Shown here piece after piece: positions 3,199 through 59,003 of a stretch of 64,000 nt of DNA. The stretch is taken from contig NZ_QANS01000005.1 in assembly GCF_003052265.1 (NCBI RefSeq), forward strand, positions 310,001 through 374,000, given 5' to 3'. The first letter of the stretch is position 1. Every line of letters starts with the position of its first letter. The DNA is from Stenotrophobium rhamnosiphilum. GTDB lineage: Bacteria; Pseudomonadota; Gammaproteobacteria; Nevskiales; Nevskiaceae. The notes under the pieces were generated by a model. It searched no databases and was not told the origin of the DNA. It saw nothing but the letters and a program-made list of their open reading frames with translations. A program made the position numbers and the translations under genes.

Positions 3199-4935
3199 GT
3201 GGCCATTAATCCTCAAATGTCATCACCCAGCGGCTTCATCGGCGGCCTCGCCAGACGGCTGGTTGCTGACGGTCTGATTGCTGAGGACATCGCGCGCGAG
3301 CATCAACAAAAAGCGCTTAAAAACGGCGTTCAATTTGTTTCGCTCCTCGTTGAATCTAAGTTAGTTACTGCCGCAAAGATCGCAGAAGCCGCCAGCATCG
3401 AATTCGGTGTGCCGCTGATTGATATGCGTGCGATTGAAATTGATCTGACAGTTGCCAAAGGCGTTAACGAAAAAGTCCTTAAAAAAGCCCACGCTCTGCC
3501 GATTTTTGCGCGTGGCAAGAAAATTTTCGTTGCAGTTTCAGACCCCACAAATCTGCAAGCACTAGACGACATCAAGTTTGCAACGGGCAGCACCACCGAA
3601 GCGATCCTAGTAGAAGAAGACAAGCTCACCAAAGCGATTGAAGCCACGCTGCAGGCGATTGAATCGTCCAGCATGAAAGTTTCGGGAGATACTGATCTCG
3701 ATAATTTGGATTTTGTCGACACCAGTGAAGAAGACACCCCCGACGTCAGCCGTAGCGATGCAGATGACGCACCGATTGTTCGCTTCGTTCACAAAATCAT
3801 GATTGATGCGATTAACCAAGGCGCATCTGATATTCACTTTGAGCCTTACGAAAAGATTTATCGCATCCGCTACCGCAGAGATGGCGAGCTAAAAACCGTC
3901 GCCACGCCACCGGTGGCGATGGGCGGACGCTTGGCAGCGCGCGTCAAAGTGATGTCACGTTTGGATCTTGCTGAGCGTCGCGTACCACAAGACGGTCGCA
4001 TCAAACTGCAGATATCAAAAAACAAAGCTATCGACTTCCGTGTCAGTAGCTGCCCGACGCTATTTGGCGAAAAGATTTGCTGTCGTATTTTGGATCCTTC
4101 CAGCGCACAGTTGGGTATCGATGCGCTGGGCTACGAGCCAGAACAAAAAGACGCATATATGAAAGCCTTGGGTCGTCCACAAGGCATGATTCTGGTGACC
4201 GGCCCCACAGGCTCGGGTAAAACCGTTTCGCTTTATACCGGCCTCAACATCCTCAACACCGAAGACATCAATATTTCGACCGCGGAAGACCCGGCCGAAA
4301 TCAATTTGCCGGGTATTAATCAGGTCAACGTCTATCCCAAGGTCGGCCTGACCTTTGCGGCCGCTCTCAAAGCCTTCTTGCGCCAAGATCCTGATGTCAT
4401 CATGGTCGGCGAAATTCGTGACCTCGAGACTGCCGAAATTGCGATCAAGGCTGCGCAGACGGGACACTTGGTGCTTTCAACACTGCACACCAATGATGCG
4501 CCACAAACTTTGGTGCGCCTGATGAATATGGGCGTTCCGGCATACAACGTTGCCTCGACACTGAACCTGATTATTGCTCAGCGTCTGGCACGCAAACTGT
4601 GCCCACACTGCAAGCGTCCAGCCAGCATTCCAAAACCCGAGTTGGTTCGCCAAGGCTTCAAGCAGGAAGAAGTTGATGCGCCTGGCTTCACGGTTTACGA
4701 AGCGGTTGGCTGCGATCAGTGCGACCTAGGTTACAAAGGCCGTACCGGCATCTACCAAGTGATGCCATTTTCAGACGCCATGGGCCGCATCATGATGGAA
4801 GGCGGCAACGCCATTGAAATTGCGGATCAGGCTCAGAAAGAAGGCATCAAAGATTTACGTCAATCGGCTTTGGTCAAAGTAAAGGCCGGCAGCATTGACC
4901 TCGCGCAAGCTAACGCTTGTACGATGGGCGAATAA
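3199..4935 (+). CDS. pilB: Type IV pilus assembly ATPase PilB
   Basis: 578 residues, the usual length for PilB. The N-terminal MshEN-type domain (about 10-170) is followed by an ASDIHFEPYE segment and the ATPase core: Walker A GPTGSGKT (335-342), Walker B-like DVIMVGE (399-405), and a zinc-binding pair C468-x2-C471 and C505-x2-C508. It is the cytoplasmic hexameric motor that extrudes pilin subunits with PilC. The called start is GTG at 3199 without a strong ribosome site; ATG at 3217 (MSSPSG) is an alternative. pilC follows after 25 bases and pilD after that. No pilin gene is present in the window. Confidence 0.97.
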   Translation: MAINPQMSSPSGFIGGLARRLVADGLIAEDIAREHQQKALKNGVQFVSLLVESKLVTAAKIAEAASIEFGVPLIDMRAIEIDLTVAKGVNEKVLKKAHALPIFARGKKIFVAVSDPTNLQALDDIKFATGSTTEAILVEEDKLTKAIEATLQAIESSSMKVSGDTDLDNLDFVDTSEEDTPDVSRSDADDAPIVRFVHKIMIDAINQGASDIHFEPYEKIYRIRYRRDGELKTVATPPVAMGGRLAARVKVMSRLDLAERRVPQDGRIKLQISKNKAIDFRVSSCPTLFGEKICCRILDPSSAQLGIDALGYEPEQKDAYMKALGRPQGMILVTGPTGSGKTVSLYTGLNILNTEDINISTAEDPAEINLPGINQVNVYPKVGLTFAAALKAFLRQDPDVIMVGEIRDLETAEIAIKAAQTGHLVLSTLHTNDAPQTLVRLMNMGVPAYNVASTLNLIIAQRLARKLCPHCKRPASIPKPELVRQGFKQEEVDAPGFTVYEAVGCDQCDLGYKGRTGIYQVMPFSDAMGRIMMEGGNAIEIADQAQKEGIKDLRQSALVKVKAGSIDLAQANACTMGE

Positions 4936-8841: not shown

Positions 8842-9764
8842 GCGGAGATACCCGCAACACCTTGCGCGTAATGCGCAAACGCCTGTTCCCGATCACGCGG
8901 CCTGACGCCACCAATGGCATAGACCGGCCGATTCGCCTGATCTGCCAAAGCCGCGAATCCTGACCAACCCAGCACCTTGCCTTGCGGGTGACTTGGCGTT
9001 GGATTCACCGAACCGACAACTAGAAAATCTGCACCAGCTTTTTGCGCCTGTGCCAGTTCCGCCTCGTTGTGAACCGAAGCGGCAAACCAGAATTCTTCAG
9101 CCAACGGGCGCGATGTTTGCGCACTAAGCGCAGCAGCCGATGCATGCCAACCCGCAGCACCCAATTCCGCCACCATCGCGGGATCACGATCCAGCATCAG
9201 GAGCAGTCCTAAGCGCTTGCACGCGGGCGCCAATCGCCCAGCCAAAGCTTTGTAGGCTGCATCACTTAATGCAGGCTGACGCAGCCGCAGCAATGCGCCC
9301 TTCGGCAGCAGCGGCAAGCCCGAGACGAGCGCAGCCTCGTCTATGCCTTCCGGCGTAAACACGTAGTCCTGCGGCAGCCGCAGCGAGGCCACGATGGGGC
9401 CGTCAGCGCCAAGCAGCGGATAGTCGAATAAGCGCTCAGGCCGAACCCAAGCAAACGCCTGCTGTTCACGACCATGGGGCTCACCGCTGAATGCAGTGAC
9501 CAACCAAGTGTCGAGAACAACCTTGCGATCGCTGTAGTCGTGAGTAATGCGAACCAACGGACGGAACGCGCTGGCATGCACGCCAAGCTCTTCTTCCAAC
9601 TCGCGCACAAGCGCCTGATCAGCACGCTCACCCACCTCGATCTTGCCGCCAGGAAACTCCCACTTACCCGCCGCAATTTTCCCTTCGGGACGTTGCGCAA
9701 TCAGCACTTCGCCGGCTGCATTCACAATGCAGCCAGCAGCGACGGCAATTGAGCGGCGAATCAA
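8814..9764 (-). CDS. Nudix hydrolase/thiamine-phosphate-synthase-like fusion (MutT-ThiE type)
   Basis: 316 residues from TTG at 9764. The N-terminal Nudix domain has the full box GX5EX7RE...EELG (about 40-61), as in MutT proteins that hydrolyse oxidised dGTP. The C-terminal third resembles thiamine monophosphate synthase (VVGSVNPTPSHPQGKVLGW, then YAIGGVRPRD). The TTG start overlaps the argJ stop as TTGA, which indicates translational coupling; a start at 9818 would lie 55 bases inside argJ and adds residues with no Nudix support. Such fusions are common next to argJ in gammaproteobacteria. Nudix activity is likely; whether the ThiE-like half is catalytic is doubtful. Confidence 0.9.
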   Translation of the reverse strand: MIRRSIAVAAGCIVNAAGEVLIAQRPEGKIAAGKWEFPGGKIEVGERADQALVRELEEELGVHASAFRPLVRITHDYSDRKVVLDTWLVTAFSGEPHGREQQAFAWVRPERLFDYPLLGADGPIVASLRLPQDYVFTPEGIDEAALVSGLPLLPKGALLRLRQPALSDAAYKALAGRLAPACKRLGLLLMLDRDPAMVAELGAAGWHASAAALSAQTSRPLAEEFWFAASVHNEAELAQAQKAGADFLVVGSVNPTPSHPQGKVLGWSGFAALADQANRPVYAIGGVRPRDREQAFAHYAQGVAGISAYWSVPSSS

Positions 9765-10981
9765 GTGCGGTATTCGGCGTTGATCTTCACATAGTCGTAG
9801 CTGAAGTCGCAGGTCCACACCGTGGTCTGCGCGTTGCCGCGACCCAGACCAATGCTGATCGCGAACTCTTCTTTAGCGACGACCGCTGCACCCTTGTCTT
9901 CGTGATAGCTCGGATGCGGTTCGCCCTTTTCGATGAGCTGCACATCATCCAGCGCCACGCTGACCTTGGCGGCATCCAGACCTTCAACGCCTGCTTTACC
10001 GATGGCCATGACGATACGGCCCCAGTTGGCATCGGACGCAAACAGCGCCGTCTTTACCAGCGGCGAATGTGCGACAGACAAAGCCACCTGCCGCGCTTCC
10101 GCAGCCGTGGTCGCGCCACCGACATTGATCGTGACGAACTTGGTCGCGCCTTCACCGTCACGCACGATCGCGTGCGCGAGCTCGCGGCAGACCGATTCAA
10201 TCGCGCTGCTGATTGCAGCGTAATCCGCATGGCTGGCATCGACATCGCTGCTGCCGACCTGTGCCGTGGCAATCAACACGCAGGAATCATTGGTCGAGGT
10301 ATCGCCATCGACCGTCACGCAATTGAAGCTGCGCGAGACGGCATCTTTCAGAATGGCACTCGTTGCTTCAGCGCTGAGCCGCGCGTCAGTCGCGATGAAC
10401 GACAGCAACGTCGCCATATCCGGATGGATCATGCCCACGCCTTTGGCAATGCCAGTCACAGTGACTTCGCCCTGAGAAGTCTGCACTCGACGCGTCGCGC
10501 CTTTCGGCAGCGTGTCGGTGGTCATAATCGCGCGCATCGCGTCCGGCCAATGATCAGCATTGAGCACAGCCGCAGCATTCGGCACGGCATCAACCATGCG
10601 CTGCACTGGCAAGCGCTGGCCAATCACACCGGTAGAAAACGGCAGCACTTGCTCAGGCTTGCAGCCCAAAGCTTTGGCCACCACGACAGACGTCAGCCGC
10701 GCATCTTCAATGCCGCCACTGCCTGTGGCCGCATTCGCATTGCCCGAGTTCACCAGCAGCGCGCGCATCTCACTGCCAGCAGCGAGACGCTCGCGGCATA
10801 GGATTACCGGCGCAGCCGAAAAGGCATTGCGCGTAAACACGCCCGCAACGCGCGAACCCGGCGCCAGTTCAATCAGCAGCAAATCCTTGCGGCCCGGTTT
10901 CTTGATCGCAGCCTCAGCCACGCCAAGGCGGATGCCTTTGACCGGATGCAGAACTTCGGGAACCTTGAGATTGACGGCCAT
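9761..10981 (-). CDS. argJ: Bifunctional glutamate N-acetyltransferase/amino-acid acetyltransferase ArgJ
   Basis: 406 residues from ATG at 10981 (GGAAA seven bases upstream; a GTG two codons earlier is less likely). ArgJ moves acetyl groups from N-acetylornithine to glutamate in the arginine pathway. The self-cleavage motif [14 protein letters not shown] places the nucleophile at T191, between A190 and T191. The proenzyme splits into alpha and beta chains there. It lies downstream of secA on the same strand but is separated from it by a terminator and repeats, so it may have its own promoter. It is coupled to the MutT/ThiE gene downstream. Confidence 0.95.
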
Positions 10982-11007
10982 GTGCACATTTCCGAGTGAG
11001 ACTAAAA

Positions 11008-11047
11008 AAGAAAGACGCTAGGCGAACCTAGCGTCTTTCTTATTTTA
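11008..11047. terminator. Bidirectional terminator hairpin between argJ and secA
   Basis: A perfect 15-base stem (11008-11022 with 11027-11041) closes a CGAA tetraloop. On the plus side it runs into TTCTTATTTT and on the minus side into TCTTTTTTAG, so either direction could terminate. On the minus strand it lies 27 bases before the argJ start. The hairpin repeat units begin 17 bases beyond its plus-strand side. Confidence 0.85.
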
Positions 11048-11058
11048 AAGCCTTTTTA

Positions 11059-11110
11059 TGTACAGGATGTACGGTATGTGGATGGGCGCATGGATGCGCA
11101 GGAATCCACA
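11059..11110 (+). repeat. Covarying hairpin repeat, copy 1
   Basis: Begins with TGTACAGGATGTACGGTA and then forms a hairpin: outer arm TGTGGAT (11077-11083), GG, inner palindrome GCGCAT-GG-ATGCGC (11086-11099), AGGA, outer arm ATCCACA (11104-11110). The core is shared with three other copies, but the outer stem sequence is not. It is followed directly by a second unit in the same orientation. Confidence 0.85.
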
Positions 11111-11112
11111 AG

Positions 11113-11167
11113 ATGTACAAGGATGTACGGTACCTCCGCGGGCGCATGGATGCGCAGGAGCGGAGGT
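11113..11167 (+). repeat. Covarying hairpin repeat, copy 2 (tandem)
   Basis: Same plan as the preceding unit: ATGTACAAGGATGTACGGT, then an 8-base outer stem ACCTCCGC/GCGGAGGT (11132-11139 with 11160-11167) around the same GG-GCGCATGGATGCGC-AGGA core. All eight outer-stem pairs are intact although the sequence differs from the other copies. Confidence 0.85.
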
Positions 11168-11221: not shown

Positions 11222-13957
11222 TCAGACCAACGCACCGTGACACTGCTTGTATTTCTTGCCCGAACCGCAAGGACAAGGATCGTTACGGCCAACCTTGGGC
11301 TGATCGCGCATGATTGGTGCGGTTTTGATCGGCTCCGGTGCAGCTTCTAACGAACGCGGAGCGCTTGGTTCTGCCGCAGCAGCCTGCTCAACTGGACTAG
11401 CAGCCTCAGCATGCTGGAACTGAAGTTCACGAGGCTTGCGGCGTTCTTCTTCCATCGCTGCCACTTCTGCTTCTGACTGCACGCGAACGCGCGCCAGCAG
11501 CGTAATAACTTCGTGTTTGAAGCGCGCAAGGATGTCGTTGAACATCGTGAAGGCTTCGCGCTTGTATTCCTGCTTGGGATCTTTCTGCGCATAACCGCGC
11601 AAGTGGATACCCTGACGCAGATAGTCCACCGCGGCCAAATGCTCGCGCCAGAGGCCATCAAGCACCTGCAGCATGATCGACTTCTCGAAGTGCTCCAAAA
11701 CGCTGGCGCCAATCTGTTCTTTCTTCAGGTTGTAGGCCGCGTCCGTTTCTTTGATCAGGCGCTCGCGCAGGCCTTTTTCATTGAGTGAGACTTCGTCGTC
11801 CAGCCACTTCGCAATCGGCAGATCCAAGCCAAAGTCGCGGCGGAAAGCTTCTTCCAAGCCCGGCACATCCCACAGTTCCACCACGCTCTGTGGCGGAATG
11901 TTGGCGTCGACAATTGCATTGATAACGTCAGGGCGGATGCGATCAACCATCGCGGTCACGCGCTCGCTGCCCATCAACTCATCGCGCAGATCGTAAATCG
12001 CTTTACGCTGATCGTTGGCAACGTTGTCGTAGTCGAGCAGGTTTTTACGAATATCGAAGTTATGCGCTTCAACCTTGCGCTGCGCCGTTTCAATCGCGCG
12101 CGTTACCCAGCGGTGTTCAATCGCTTCGCCTTCAGCCATGCCCAAGCCTTGCAGCATTGAGCGCATGCGTGGTGGCGTGAAGATGCGCATCAAGGTGTCG
12201 TCTAACGACAGATAGAAACGCGTTGCACCCGGATCACCCTGACGACCTGAACGGCCGCGCAGCTGGTTATCGATACGGCGTGATTCGTGGCGCTCAGAAC
12301 CGATCACCAACAAACCACCGGCTTGCAGCACTTGATCGTGTCGAATCTGCCAGGCTTTCTTGGCAGCTTCGCGAGTAGCGACGTCATCTTCTGTGATCTG
12401 ATGCAGCTCAGCTTCCAAGCTACCGCCGAGCACGATGTCCGTACCACGACCGGCCATGTTGGTCGCGATGGTCACACCACCCTGACGACCAGCCTGCGCA
12501 ACAATTTCTGCTTCGCGCTCATGCTGTTTAGCGTTAAGCACTTCGTGCTTGATGCCCTCTTTCTTCAACAGTGAAGAGAGCAGTTCCGAAGTTTCAATCG
12601 ATGCCGTACCCACCAGCACCGGTTGCAGCTTGGCATGTGCTTCTTTGACGTCGCGAATCACGGCGTCAAACTTTTCCTTGGCGGTCATGAACACCTGATC
12701 ACCGCGATCGAGGCGCAGCATCTTGCGGTTCGACGGCACCATCACAACTTCAAGGTTGTAAATGCTCTGGAACTCAAACGCTTCGGTATCGGCGGTGCCG
12801 GTCATGCCCGAGAGTTTGTTGTACAGACGGAAATAATTTTGGAATGTGATCGACGCCAGCGTCTGGTTTTCCTGCTGGATCTGCACGCCTTCTTTGGCTT
12901 CAACAGCCTGATGCAGGCCATCGCTCCAGCGACGACCCGACATCATACGGCCGGTGAATTCGTCGATGATCACGACCTGACCATCACGCACGATGTATTC
13001 AACATCCTTGTGATACAGGGTGTGCGCGCGCAGCAGCGCGTTGAGGTGATGCATCAAGATGATGTTGGAAGCGTCGTAGAGGCTTTCTTCTTCGCCAAGC
13101 AAACCGGCTTGACGCATATAGCCTTCAACGCTCTCGTGTCCCTGCTCGGACAGATGAACCTGCTTACCCTTTTCGTCGGCGTAATAATCGCCTTCGGTTT
13201 CTTCGCCTTCCTGGCGCTTGAGGCGCGGCACGATCGCGTTGATCTTGCGGTACAGCGCAGGATCATCATCGGTCGGACCGGAGATGATCAGCGGCGTACG
13301 CGCTTCGTCGATCAGGATGGAGTCGACTTCGTCGATGACCGCGTAGAACTGACCACGCTGCACCTTGTCGGTGAGCGCAAACGCCATGTTGTCGCGCAGG
13401 TAATCGAAGCCAAGTTCGTTGTTGGTTGCGTAGGTGATATCAGCGGCATAAGCCTGACGCTTTTCTTCTTGCGACTGGCCGGAAACAACAACGCTGACCG
13501 TCATGCCGAGGAAGCGGAAAATGCTGCCCATCCACTCGGAGTCGCGGCGTGCAAGGTAATCGTTGACGGTAACAATGTGAACGCCCTTGGCGGGCAGCGC
13601 ATTGAGATAAGCCGACAACGTTGCAACCAGCGTTTTACCTTCACCGGTTTTCATTTCTGCAATCTTGCCGGCGTGCAGCACTGCACCACCGACCAGCTGC
13701 ACGTCGAAGTGACGCATGCCCAGCACGCGCTTGCCGGCTTCACGCACTACGGCGAAAGCTTCAGCTTTGAGCTTATCGAGTGCTTCGCCCTTGGCGAGAC
13801 GATCGCGGAATACCTGCGTTTGACGCGCAAGCTCTTCATCGCTCAACGCAGCAAATTTAGGCTCTAAAGCGTTGACTTGAGCAACCAGTCCTTCGAGGGC
13901 TTTAAGGTTGCGCTGATTGCGGCTCCCAAAGATACGAGCCAGCAGATTATTAAACAT
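11222..13957 (-). CDS. secA: Preprotein translocase ATPase SecA
   Basis: 911 residues, full length. Walker A is MKTGEGKT (102-109) and Walker B DEVD (209-212). The C-terminal tail has the SecB/zinc motif C895-x-C897...C906-H907. SecA powers export of unfolded proteins through SecYEG. The gene lies downstream of the M23 peptidase, with 133 bases between them, as in pseudomonads. A REP-like hairpin directly follows the stop codon, and a terminator lies about 200 bases further on. Confidence 0.98.
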
Positions 13958-34303: not shown

Positions 34304-34534
34304 GCACTTAGGTCTATTTGCGACAGTCGATTAGGCACTTCATTTAAAACAAAGAGTTACAGCTAATACTTAAAGTAAAAATGAGCTGTTTACTGGGGAT
34401 TTTGAGCTCAGCCGCCCGTTAACCACGGTTTTGGACGTGAATTGGGGGTTGGAGAGTGTTTGTTGGTCAAAAAAGCAGCAAGATTCAAACCGAAACAGGC
34501 TGCCATATCGATGGGCCCCGCGCTTGGTGCGAGG

Positions 34535-34584
34535 CGCCGCTCCTGCGCATCCTGCGCCCGCGGCGTACCGTACATCCTGTACAT
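34535..34584 (-). repeat. Covarying hairpin repeat, copy 3
   Basis: Minus strand: ATGTACAGGATGTACGGTA (34566-34584), then outer arm GCGGCG/CGCCGC pairing (34535-34540 with 34560-34565) around the core. The inner palindrome has lost one A. It starts 11 bases beyond the rnpB terminator stem, on the side of its T-tract. Confidence 0.8.
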
Positions 34585-34617
34585 AAAAACAGAAACGGCT
34601 TGGTTTTAGCCAAGCCG
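34585..34617 (-). terminator. Rho-independent terminator of rnpB
   Basis: Minus strand 8-base stem CGGCTTGG/CCAAGCCG (34596-34617) followed by TTTCTGTTTTT. It lies about 25 bases downstream of the mature rnpB 3' end. Confidence 0.9.
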
Positions 34618-34641
34618 CCGGTAAAACCTACACGGTGTTTA

Positions 34642-34998
34642 ACGAGTCAGCCGTTAAGCCGGGTTCTGTCGTGGACAACCATTCCTCTAGGCGTACCGTC
34701 GCCGGCACGCTCAAGCAACCTACCCGGAAGGCATGCGGGCCGCATGTTGCCTTTCGGCGTCCTTCCCTATTTGGTCTTGCTCCAAGTGGGGTTTTCCGTG
34801 CCGCCACTGTTGCCAGTGACGCGGTGCGCTCTTACCGCACCTTTTCACCCTTACCGTCGCCTTGCGGCGCTTAGGCGGTTCATTCTCTGTGGCACTTTCC
34901 GTAGGCTCGCGCCTCCCAGGCATTACCTGGCACTTCGCCCGATGGAGCCCGGACTTTCCTCCCCCACTTGCGTGGCGGCGATTGTCTTGGCCGACTCA
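34642..34998 (-). ncRNA. rnpB: RNase P RNA (type A)
   Basis: Minus strand carries the universal segments GAGGAAAGTCCGGGCTCC near the 5' end, GGTAAGGGTGAAAAGGTGCG and AGACCAAATAGG in the middle, and CACGACAGAACCCGGCTTA near the 3' end. The ends pair as helix P1 (GAGTCGGCC with GGCTGACTC), which sets the limits to within a few bases. It is the catalytic RNA that matures tRNA 5' ends. Followed by a clear terminator. Confidence 0.96.
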
Positions 34999-49915: not shown

Positions 49916-51316
49916 ATGGCGACCTTTGCCGTGCGTATTTTCAAACGATACGCGTCTTTCGGAGTTACCGGCTCCACCGCTGCACTGTTAAGTCTTGGGC
50001 TGATTGCAACGCCCGCTTTAGCCAAAGTTTCTCAAGCCGAAGCAGACAAGCTGAAAAGCGAGTTGACGCCTGTCGGTGCCGAACGTGCGGCCAATAGCGC
50101 CGGCACGATTCCCAAATGGGAAGGTGGACTGAAAACAGCGCCGCCTTGCTATAAAGGCAGAGGCACTCGTTATTGCGATCCGTTCCCTTCAGATAAGCCA
50201 CTGTTCACGATTACCAAGGCCAATCTTGCGACCTATAAGGGTCAGTTGACCGAAGGTCAGAAAGCACTGTTCGCCAAATTTGGCGATAGCTACAAGATGA
50301 ACGTGTATCCAACGCGTCGTACGGTCGGCTTCCCAGATTTTGTTTACGAAGCCACCACCAAGAACGCGCTGAACGCCGAGCTCACCAATGGCGGTGAATC
50401 ACTCAATGGCGCGGTGTTGGGCATTCCATTCCCGATTCCCAAGACCGGCAACGAGCCGATCTGGAACCACAAGCTGCGTTATCGCGGCGTCGGTGTTGAT
50501 CGTTGGAACAATCAGGCTGCGGTCACCACTTCTGGCGATTTCAATCTGGTAAAAATTCACGAGCAAGTAAAGTTTCTTTACGACACTCGCGGCATTACGC
50601 CAGAGCAGCTCGATAACGTCGGCATTTACTTCATGCAGGTCGTTACTGCACCACCTCGTCTCGCAGGCCAGATTACGCTGGTGCACGAGACGATGGATCA
50701 GGTGAAAGAACCACGCCGCGCATGGCAGTACAACCCAGGTCAGCGTCGTCTGCGTCGCGCACCTAACGTCGGCTATGACAATCCGGGCACCGGCGCTGAT
50801 GGTCTGCGTACCAACGACCAGACCGACACCTTTAACGGTGCAACCGATCGCTACACTTGGAAATTGGTCGGCAAGAAAGAGATGTACATCCCGTACAACG
50901 CGTACGTGGTGCACTCCGACAAGTACAAGTTCAAAGACATCATTCGCAAAGGTCATATCAACCAAGACCTACCGCGTTATGAACTGCACCGCGTTTGGGT
51001 TGTGGAATCCAACATCAAGCCAGGCACCACGCACATCTATCGTAAGCGCGTGTTCTATGTTGATGAAGACAGCTGGCAGATTGCAGCTGTAGATATTTAC
51101 GACGCACGCCAAACCCTGTGGCGCGTACAGGAATCACACCTCATCGGCATTTACGATCTCCTGGGCAGCGGCCCTGTTTTGGAAACCGTTTATGACCTGC
51201 AGTCCGGCCGTTATCTGGCACAGGCGATGAACAACGAAGATCCGGAGACCAGCGAAAAGAATTTCGAGGTCAACTTCTTCGATCCTGCAAACGTCGCCAA
51301 ACAAGCCAGCAAATAA
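49916..51316 (+). CDS. DUF1329 family envelope protein
   Basis: 466 residues with a signal peptide (cleavage near residue 36, TPALA-KV). The family's features are AEADKLKSELTPVGAERAAN after the leader, EWGG-like GTIPKWEGGL, and the C-terminal VEYDLQSGRYLA-type strands (here TVYDLQSGRYLA). It should be periplasmic or outer-membrane associated. AGAGGAGAA precedes the ATG. It pairs with the DUF1302 gene 60 bases downstream; these two families are often encoded together. Biochemical role unknown; lipid or hydrophobic-compound handling has been suggested for such pairs. Confidence 0.9.
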   Translation: MATFAVRIFKRYASFGVTGSTAALLSLGLIATPALAKVSQAEADKLKSELTPVGAERAANSAGTIPKWEGGLKTAPPCYKGRGTRYCDPFPSDKPLFTITKANLATYKGQLTEGQKALFAKFGDSYKMNVYPTRRTVGFPDFVYEATTKNALNAELTNGGESLNGAVLGIPFPIPKTGNEPIWNHKLRYRGVGVDRWNNQAAVTTSGDFNLVKIHEQVKFLYDTRGITPEQLDNVGIYFMQVVTAPPRLAGQITLVHETMDQVKEPRRAWQYNPGQRRLRRAPNVGYDNPGTGADGLRTNDQTDTFNGATDRYTWKLVGKKEMYIPYNAYVVHSDKYKFKDIIRKGHINQDLPRYELHRVWVVESNIKPGTTHIYRKRVFYVDEDSWQIAAVDIYDARQTLWRVQESHLIGIYDLLGSGPVLETVYDLQSGRYLAQAMNNEDPETSEKNFEVNFFDPANVAKQASK

Positions 51317-58757: not shown

Positions 58758-58837
58758 TTTTTGGGCCGCCTGTTGAATATGCCGTTAGCTGTCGCTTCTG
58801 GGTGGTCTTTTGAGTAGGCTGACGCGGGAAAGGGGCG

Positions 58838-58925
58838 TTCCTGCGCGGCCATTAAATGGTGCCATTTAGGCTCCCACCAATCCCGCTCCTGCGCGGCCTT
58901 TAAGACAGGCCTGTGCTTAATGAGA
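58838..58925 (-). repeat. Partial repeat units and palindromes beside copy 4
   Basis: Two shortened units carry TCCTGCGCGGCC (plus strand, about 58839 and 58888), matching the AGGA-plus-half-palindrome end of the repeat core. They alternate with the palindromes TAAATGG-TG-CCATTTA (about 58853-58868) and ACAGGCCTGT (about 58905-58914). Confidence 0.6.
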
Positions 58926-58927
58926 GA

Positions 58928-58979
58928 ATCCCGTTCCTGCGCATCCATGCGCCCACGGGATACAGTACGTCCTGTACAT
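58928..58979 (-). repeat. Covarying hairpin repeat, copy 4
   Basis: Minus strand: ATGTACAGGACGTAC (58965-58979), then outer stem ATCCCGT/ACGGGAT (58928-58934 with 58955-58961), the intact inner palindrome GCGCAT-GG-ATGCGC (58939-58952) and AGGA. It begins directly beyond the T-tract of the next terminator-like hairpin. Confidence 0.85.
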
Positions 58980-59003
58980 AAAAAAACCCGGCTTTGGGCC
59001 GGG
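58980..59003 (-). terminator. Terminator-like hairpin beside repeat copy 4
   Basis: Minus strand stem CCCGGC/GCCGGG (58987-58992 with 58998-59003) followed by seven T. It faces ppa from the opposite strand and no gene is seen upstream of it on that strand within 250 bases, so the transcript it would end is unclear. The remaining stretch to 59250 shows nothing coding. Confidence 0.7.

Follow-up and report, generated by a model that had tools for sequence, protein, structure and literature searches.

How four copies of one hairpin-forming sequence, with a fixed core and changing outer stems, came to lie within one stretch of a bacterial genome is the question raised by the window analyzed here, a 64,000-nucleotide stretch of the Stenotrophobium rhamnosiphilum genome. 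The original prediction left the choice between a structured RNA and a mobile hairpin, and it recognized no named family. Empty orthologous sites, an in-frame insert in PurL, insertion within palindromes, and class-wide spread point to the mobile hairpin, with a structured RNA the weaker of the two. The lack of a name has held up, as no Rfam family matched the element at the gathering threshold and relaxed E-values returned only chance-level hits. No description of the sequence or of its kind was found in the open literature, subscription journals lying outside the search.

Direct reading located all four copies where they had been placed, with copies 1 and 2 in tandem on the + strand and copies 3 and 4 on the - strand (Table 1). 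Along the GGA-bearing strand, each copy consists of a T-tract, ATG, hairpin 1 (GTAC, loop A(N)GGAN, GTAC), and GGTA or TGTA, followed by a variable outer stem of 6 to 8 pairs, GG, the inner stem GCGC, loop A(N)GGAT, GCGC, AGGA, and the closing outer stem. Copy 2 has no T-tract of its own because it is preceded by copy 1. In general layout the element, about 51 bases long, has a small hairpin xxxC-A(N)GGAN-Gxxx separated by a short spacer from a longer stem, which encloses a second GGA-loop hairpin. Folding z-scores were -3.3, -5.0, -2.4, and -3.4 for copies 1 to 4, respectively. The strings described as common to the copies are present in all of them but are not identical (copy 2, TGTACAAGGATGTAC; copy 3, GCGCAGGATGCGC, one base shorter; copy 4, TGTACAGGACGTAC), and all differences fall in hairpin loops. 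Likewise, the leading TGTACAGGATGTAC is a shared lead but not a fixed one, being itself a hairpin whose stem covaries in other copies. The conserved strand is the same in every copy only as the GGA-bearing strand of the element, not as one strand of the genome. A fifth lead motif, at window position 50884, lacked hairpin 2 and any covariance model match and was set aside as chance.

Table 1. Copies of the element and neighboring features in the window
Feature	Position	Strand	Description and basis
Copy 1, hairpin 1	11060-11072	+	GTAC-AGGAT-GTAC; sequence, fold, covariance model match 11052-11114 +
Copy 1, hairpin 2	11077-11110	+	Outer TGTGGAT/ATCCACA around GG-GCGC-ATGGAT-GCGC-AGGA; sequence, fold, model
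Copy 2, hairpin 1	11115-11128	+	GTAC-AAGGAT-GTAC; sequence, fold, model match G000:C20:321107-321170
Copy 2, hairpin 2	11132-11167	+	Outer ACCTCCGC/GCGGAGGT around GG-GCGC-ATGGAT-GCGC-AGGA; sequence, fold, model
Copy 3	34535-34582	-	Hairpin 1, 34570-34582; hairpin 2, 34535-34565, outer CGCCGC/GCGGCG, inner GCGC-AGGAT-GCGC; sequence, fold, model match 34531-34590 -
Copy 4	58928-58977	-	Hairpin 1, 58965-58977, GTAC-AGGAC-GTAC; hairpin 2, 58928-58961, outer ATCCCGT/ACGGGAT; sequence, fold, model match 58924-58985 -
argJ	9761-10987	-	Pfam
Symmetric terminator hairpin GAAAGACGCTAGG / CCTAGCGTCTTTC	11010-11039	.	Read directly; copy 1 on its + side
secA	11222-13957	-	Pfam
Terminator-like hairpin and T-tract	34597-34616	-	Read in sequence; directly upstream of copy 3, downstream of RNase P RNA gene
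RNase P RNA (class A)	34639-34998	-	Rfam search; upstream of copy 3
Terminator-like hairpin CCCGGC..GCCGGG	58980-59003	-	T-tract runs into copy 4; upstream, no gene was found on the - strand

Across the whole 3.96-Mb genome, a covariance model (R1) built from 22 copies detected about 53 copies at an E value of ≤0.01, and the lead motif had 33 matches, compared with none when it was read backwards as a chance control. Pairing was maintained in 99.2% of cells in the 22 copies versus 87.2% in shuffles, double-change cells numbered 24 versus 5.2, and the covariation score was 0.338 versus 0.114 in shuffles and at most 0.044 in slid versions. For example, the hairpin 1 stem appears in the genome as GTAC/GTAC, GAAC/GTTC, GGCC/GGCC, GGGC/GCCC, GCAC/GTGC, GTGC/GCAC, GGAC/GTCC, and GTCC/GGAC, and its loop A(N)GGAN is kept in 48 of 53 copies; the stems covary and the loops stay fixed. 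Standard pairs are almost all Watson-Crick, and among 854 cells the mispairs comprise 14 G.T and 8 A.C, so that G.T is not clearly commoner. Paired cells and double changes this far above shuffles strongly support the proposed selection on structure. Copies with unpaired outer arms, which the original prediction had named as evidence against it, were confined to a few degenerate members, such as numbers 32, 38, and 52 of the genome set.

The element is not restricted to this genome. The hairpin 2 core was found in at least 111 stretches from Gammaproteobacteria and a few other phyla, with listed hosts including Marinobacterium, Amphritea, Sedimenticola, Thiolapillus, Dasania, Acidiferrobacterales, Luteimonas, Dyella, Rhodanobacter, and Solimonas. 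Among the matches listed, hosts outside the class include Eremiobacterota, Hydrogenedentota, and others, and the period of tandem arrays is often 51 bases. At least 60 of 274 sampled gammaproteobacterial genomes and at least 50 of 222 genera were positive. Copy number differs within the family of the window, with 53 copies in this genome, 4 in its congener, and 2 in Solimonas soli. Marinobacterium ramblicola is among the copy-rich hosts, at about 66. The plasmids and phages searched did not contain the element, and the viral contigs searched yielded 2 matches. The scan of the class had selected stretches by their hairpin 2 core only, which makes hairpin 1 an independent test of structure. A perfect 4-bp hairpin with a GGA loop was present in 81 of 114 upstream stretches, compared with 1.8 in shuffles (maximum, 6). 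In a broad set of 88 copies selected by their hairpin 1 loop (A-G-G-A-N or A-N-G-G-A-N), 95% of pairs were Watson-Crick, versus 55% when shuffled and 12 to 17% when slid, with 19 different 5' arms.

Evidence for insertion came from orthologous sites. At the 3' ends of seven conserved genes resembling citrate synthase, PntB, SucB, COX3, CpoB, amidase, and a PotA-like ATPase (names by sequence recognition), relatives G001 (same genus), G010, and G023 (Solimonas soli; the same genome as G076, which includes the contig of L128) have no element, and most keep a comparable terminator. Clear empty sites were found at citrate synthase in all three relatives, at COX3, and at PntB in G001 and G023. Behind the RNase P RNA gene, the element is absent from 16 family relatives, whose flanks have diverged too far to define an exact junction. 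Insertions also lie within proteins. The PurL protein of Stenotrophomonas sp. PS02298 exceeds a solved PurL chain by exactly 17 residues, which the element encodes in frame (51 nt), and TatD of a family relative carries a comparable insert when compared with a PDB sequence. Up to 5 bp (CGCCG) at the PurL insert could be a target duplication, judged without the empty-site DNA sequence. No clear target-site duplication was seen by eye at terminator copies, and long terminal inverted repeats, which together with a target duplication would mark a MITE (DDE transposon derivative), were not seen in the element. Presence and absence at orthologous sites mark this as an interspersed mobile repeat, and precise loss from the relatives is a less parsimonious account than insertion.

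Some copies lie within open reading frames resembling IS91-type transposases (L120, L180, and L225 and probably L138, L153, L193, L221, and L222), at several sites and in both orientations as judged by eye. A copy that seemed to interrupt a tRNA (L181, ~4530 to 4600, GCGCCCGTAGCTCAGTTAGA..) lies in tRNA-like sequence, in which ARAGORN detects no intact tRNA.

In this genome, a terminator-like hairpin with a T-tract lies directly upstream of 40 of 53 copies, compared with 162 of 10,600 random positions in the same loci (1.5%), and 4 of the 13 copies failing this test are still terminator-like by eye. Copies without a terminator occur just after stop codons or within other palindromes. In G087, about seven copies are set into the loop of GTCATTCCCGCG..GCGGGAATCC palindromes, similar in kind to CGTC-1/dRS3 (PMC3733652), and related palindromes contain copies in the S. 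rhamnosiphilum genome. The element prefers other palindromes and the 3' side of terminator hairpins. At least 29 of 53 copies follow, in sense, an open frame of ≥200 codons whose end is no more than 120 bases upstream. Many lie behind real genes in a way that would suit an RNA role too, but a preference for terminators as targets would produce the same bias, which by itself does not demonstrate such a role. In the window, copies 1 and 4 lie behind terminator hairpins with no upstream gene found on that strand, and the hairpin next to copy 1 is probably the secA terminator, read on the - strand.

Other repeats accompany the element at several loci. Three copies (L002, L030, and L011) are flanked on either side by one half of a GTCATTCCGAACGCAGTGAGGAATCT..AGATCCCTCGCGATGCTCGGGATGAC repeat pair. 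A second unit of ~47 bases with two GGA-loop hairpins, GTGAGGGCATGGATGCCCGAAGTAGAGCAACGCAGGAGCAGTTGCCG, sits within the inner loop of several copies (among L010, L011, L005, L029, L080, L081, and L085) and stands alone in L087 inside a GTAGGGTGGG..CCCACC palindrome. Further repeats of the CGCGCAGGAGCGGAGGTGTTYGTGCAGAGATGC and CCGCGCAGGAGCGGGA types, often following the element, occur at window positions 58820 to 58920 and downstream of copies in L037, L028, L001, and L062, and are apparently decayed or shortened kin of its 3' half.

We consider it probable, if well short of certain, that all copies arose by insertion of a short, non-autonomous mobile element of ~51 bp whose folded GGA strand is read via its loops by machinery supplied in trans and inserted at hairpins. 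A single strand would fold into two hairpins, each exposing an A(N)GGAN loop, and a mobilizing protein or protein-RNA machine may recognize the folded GGA strand by these two loops, the evidence for strand-specific reading being loop conservation. Insertion would then occur where the target DNA also forms a hairpin, such as a terminator stem with its T-tract, the loops of REP-type palindromes, or the element's own inner loop. The machinery may act in trans; no transposase, integrase, or reverse transcriptase linked to the element was found, and the 16 stretches between neighboring copies contained no recurrent gene that could mark an autonomous version. Under such a mechanism, stems need only pair and would drift by compensatory change, and loops would stay fixed because the machinery reads them. 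Hairpin targeting would explain why most copies lie outside genes, and the common form, whose length is a multiple of three, is free of stop codons in all six frames, so that some copies within genes would be tolerated.

One alternative is that copies are CsrA/RsmA decoys or targets, with the two GGA-loop hairpins of each copy, transcribed by read-through of the terminator, binding one CsrA dimer, so that the set of copies would buffer CsrA or place 3' ends under its control. The CsrA SELEX consensus is RUACARGGAUGU, and hairpin 1 of copy 2 (GUACAAGGAUGUAC) fits it. The CsrA-type trait of GGA in hairpin loops in an A(N)GGA context extends through the 48 genome copies noted above and the broad set. 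This genome has one CsrA, 17 of 19 element-bearing genomes have CsrA, and the sense bias behind long open frames is compatible with transcription. Paired A(N)GGAN loops also recall the predicted CsrA-binding families TwoAYGGAY and Bacillaceae-1 (PMC4333381). However, G087, a closed single chromosome, has 17 copies and no CsrA match, and the Eremiobacterota MAG G079 likewise has 7, with GGA in both loops of the copies listed. Copies sit behind the terminator rather than before it, copies 1 and 4 are oriented away from transcription, and insertions in open reading frames take both orientations (20 versus 15 in a rough count in which some frames may be spurious). Together with the lack of a clear excess of G.T over A.C mispairs, the hosts with no detected CsrA and the placement of copies 1 and 4 argue against CsrA being what preserves the loops, and we regard this role as unlikely. 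Placement of the copies follows hairpins, not transcription. A related idea, that a class-wide mobile family evolved or hijacks the CsrA/RsmA RNA-binding code of paired A(N)GGAN loops, read as RNA or single-stranded DNA by new mobilizing machinery with terminator hairpins as landing pads, seems to us a comparably long shot.

Mobilization by a RAYT (Y1 HUH transposase), as for GTAG-tagged REPs, would fit the imperfect palindrome, high copy number, extragenic 3' placement, intragenic copies, and insertion in other palindromes (PMC3733652), and one Y1_Tnp protein is encoded in this genome. That protein, the only one of its kind here (L031 1120-1818 -), reads EFH at the expected HUH motif and may be inactive. 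No copies were found at 31 Y1 loci spanning 92 kb (its own gene and 30 others from element-bearing genomes), and 4 of 16 element-bearing genomes lack a Y1 match. The palindrome foot carries no GTAG or CGTC tag, the element instead ending in TTATG../..GCGGC or GACG../..GCGRCC, and by inspection pairs and arrays run head to tail rather than as inverted dimers. A RAYT-linked REP identity was rejected on the missing tag, the missing Y1 linkage, and the lack of inverted dimers, leaving mobilization of this kind quite improbable. Group IIC introns insert behind terminators, and the element's junction, which falls at the T-tract 3' of the terminator, where transcripts end, could reflect RNA-mediated spread, either as RNA joined to the free 3' U-tract end of terminated transcripts and reverse-transcribed or as group IIC intron-like insertion. 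This is very improbable, as other insertions fall in palindrome loops and inside genes, where no RNA 3' end is expected, and neither an intron core nor a reverse transcriptase was seen adjoining copies.

An apparently unnamed repeat family occurs in at least a fifth of sampled Gammaproteobacteria, following a sharp rule of structure (stems free, GGA loops fixed) and a sharp rule of target (hairpins and terminator T-tracts). With such rules in hand, how orphan hairpin repeats with no linked transposase move becomes directly testable. The element accounts for odd peptides of 17 residues within conserved proteins, PurL and TatD being examples, and it advises caution with genome scans, in which CsrA-like GGA hairpins may not be CsrA targets but mobile repeats.

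Several known systems share parts of this anatomy. CsrB, CsrC, and RsmZ sponge RNAs carry CAGGA(U/C/A)G-type loops on hairpins and resemble the element in their GGA-type loops, whereas the element occurs as dispersed single units with no common transcript; a CsrC match in Rfam proved to be a terminator only. TwoAYGGAY RNA (RF01731) and Bacillaceae-1 (RF01690) also consist of two hairpins with GGA-type loops and are predicted to bind CsrA (PMC4333381), but they are taken as RNA genes and the element is taken as a mobile repeat. RF01731 had no match at an E value of ≤10, nor at ≤5 in seven copy-rich loci, and a match to RF01690 was on the opposite strand, at chance level (E value of 2.8; 14.2 bits versus a cutoff of 35). 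Rickettsia palindromic elements (RPE) are palindromic too, and conserved proteins tolerate their in-frame insertion, but they differ in sequence, structure, and hosts, and the element's common form is open in six frames and lies chiefly behind terminators. The GTAG- and CGTC-tagged REPs, SMAG, and dRS3 (Di Nocera 2013, PMC3733652) share with it short hairpins, tens of copies, compensatory stem variation, and a location mostly behind genes with some copies inside genes or palindromes. Unlike them, the element forms two hairpins whose GGA loops are fixed, lacks both a tag and a linked RAYT, is arrayed head to tail, and lies tightly against terminator T-tracts. In its behavior it resembles REPs and RPEs, but it fails the REP tests of tag, RAYT link, and inverted dimers and belongs to no Rfam family. 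We place its copies among interspersed mobile palindromic repeats.
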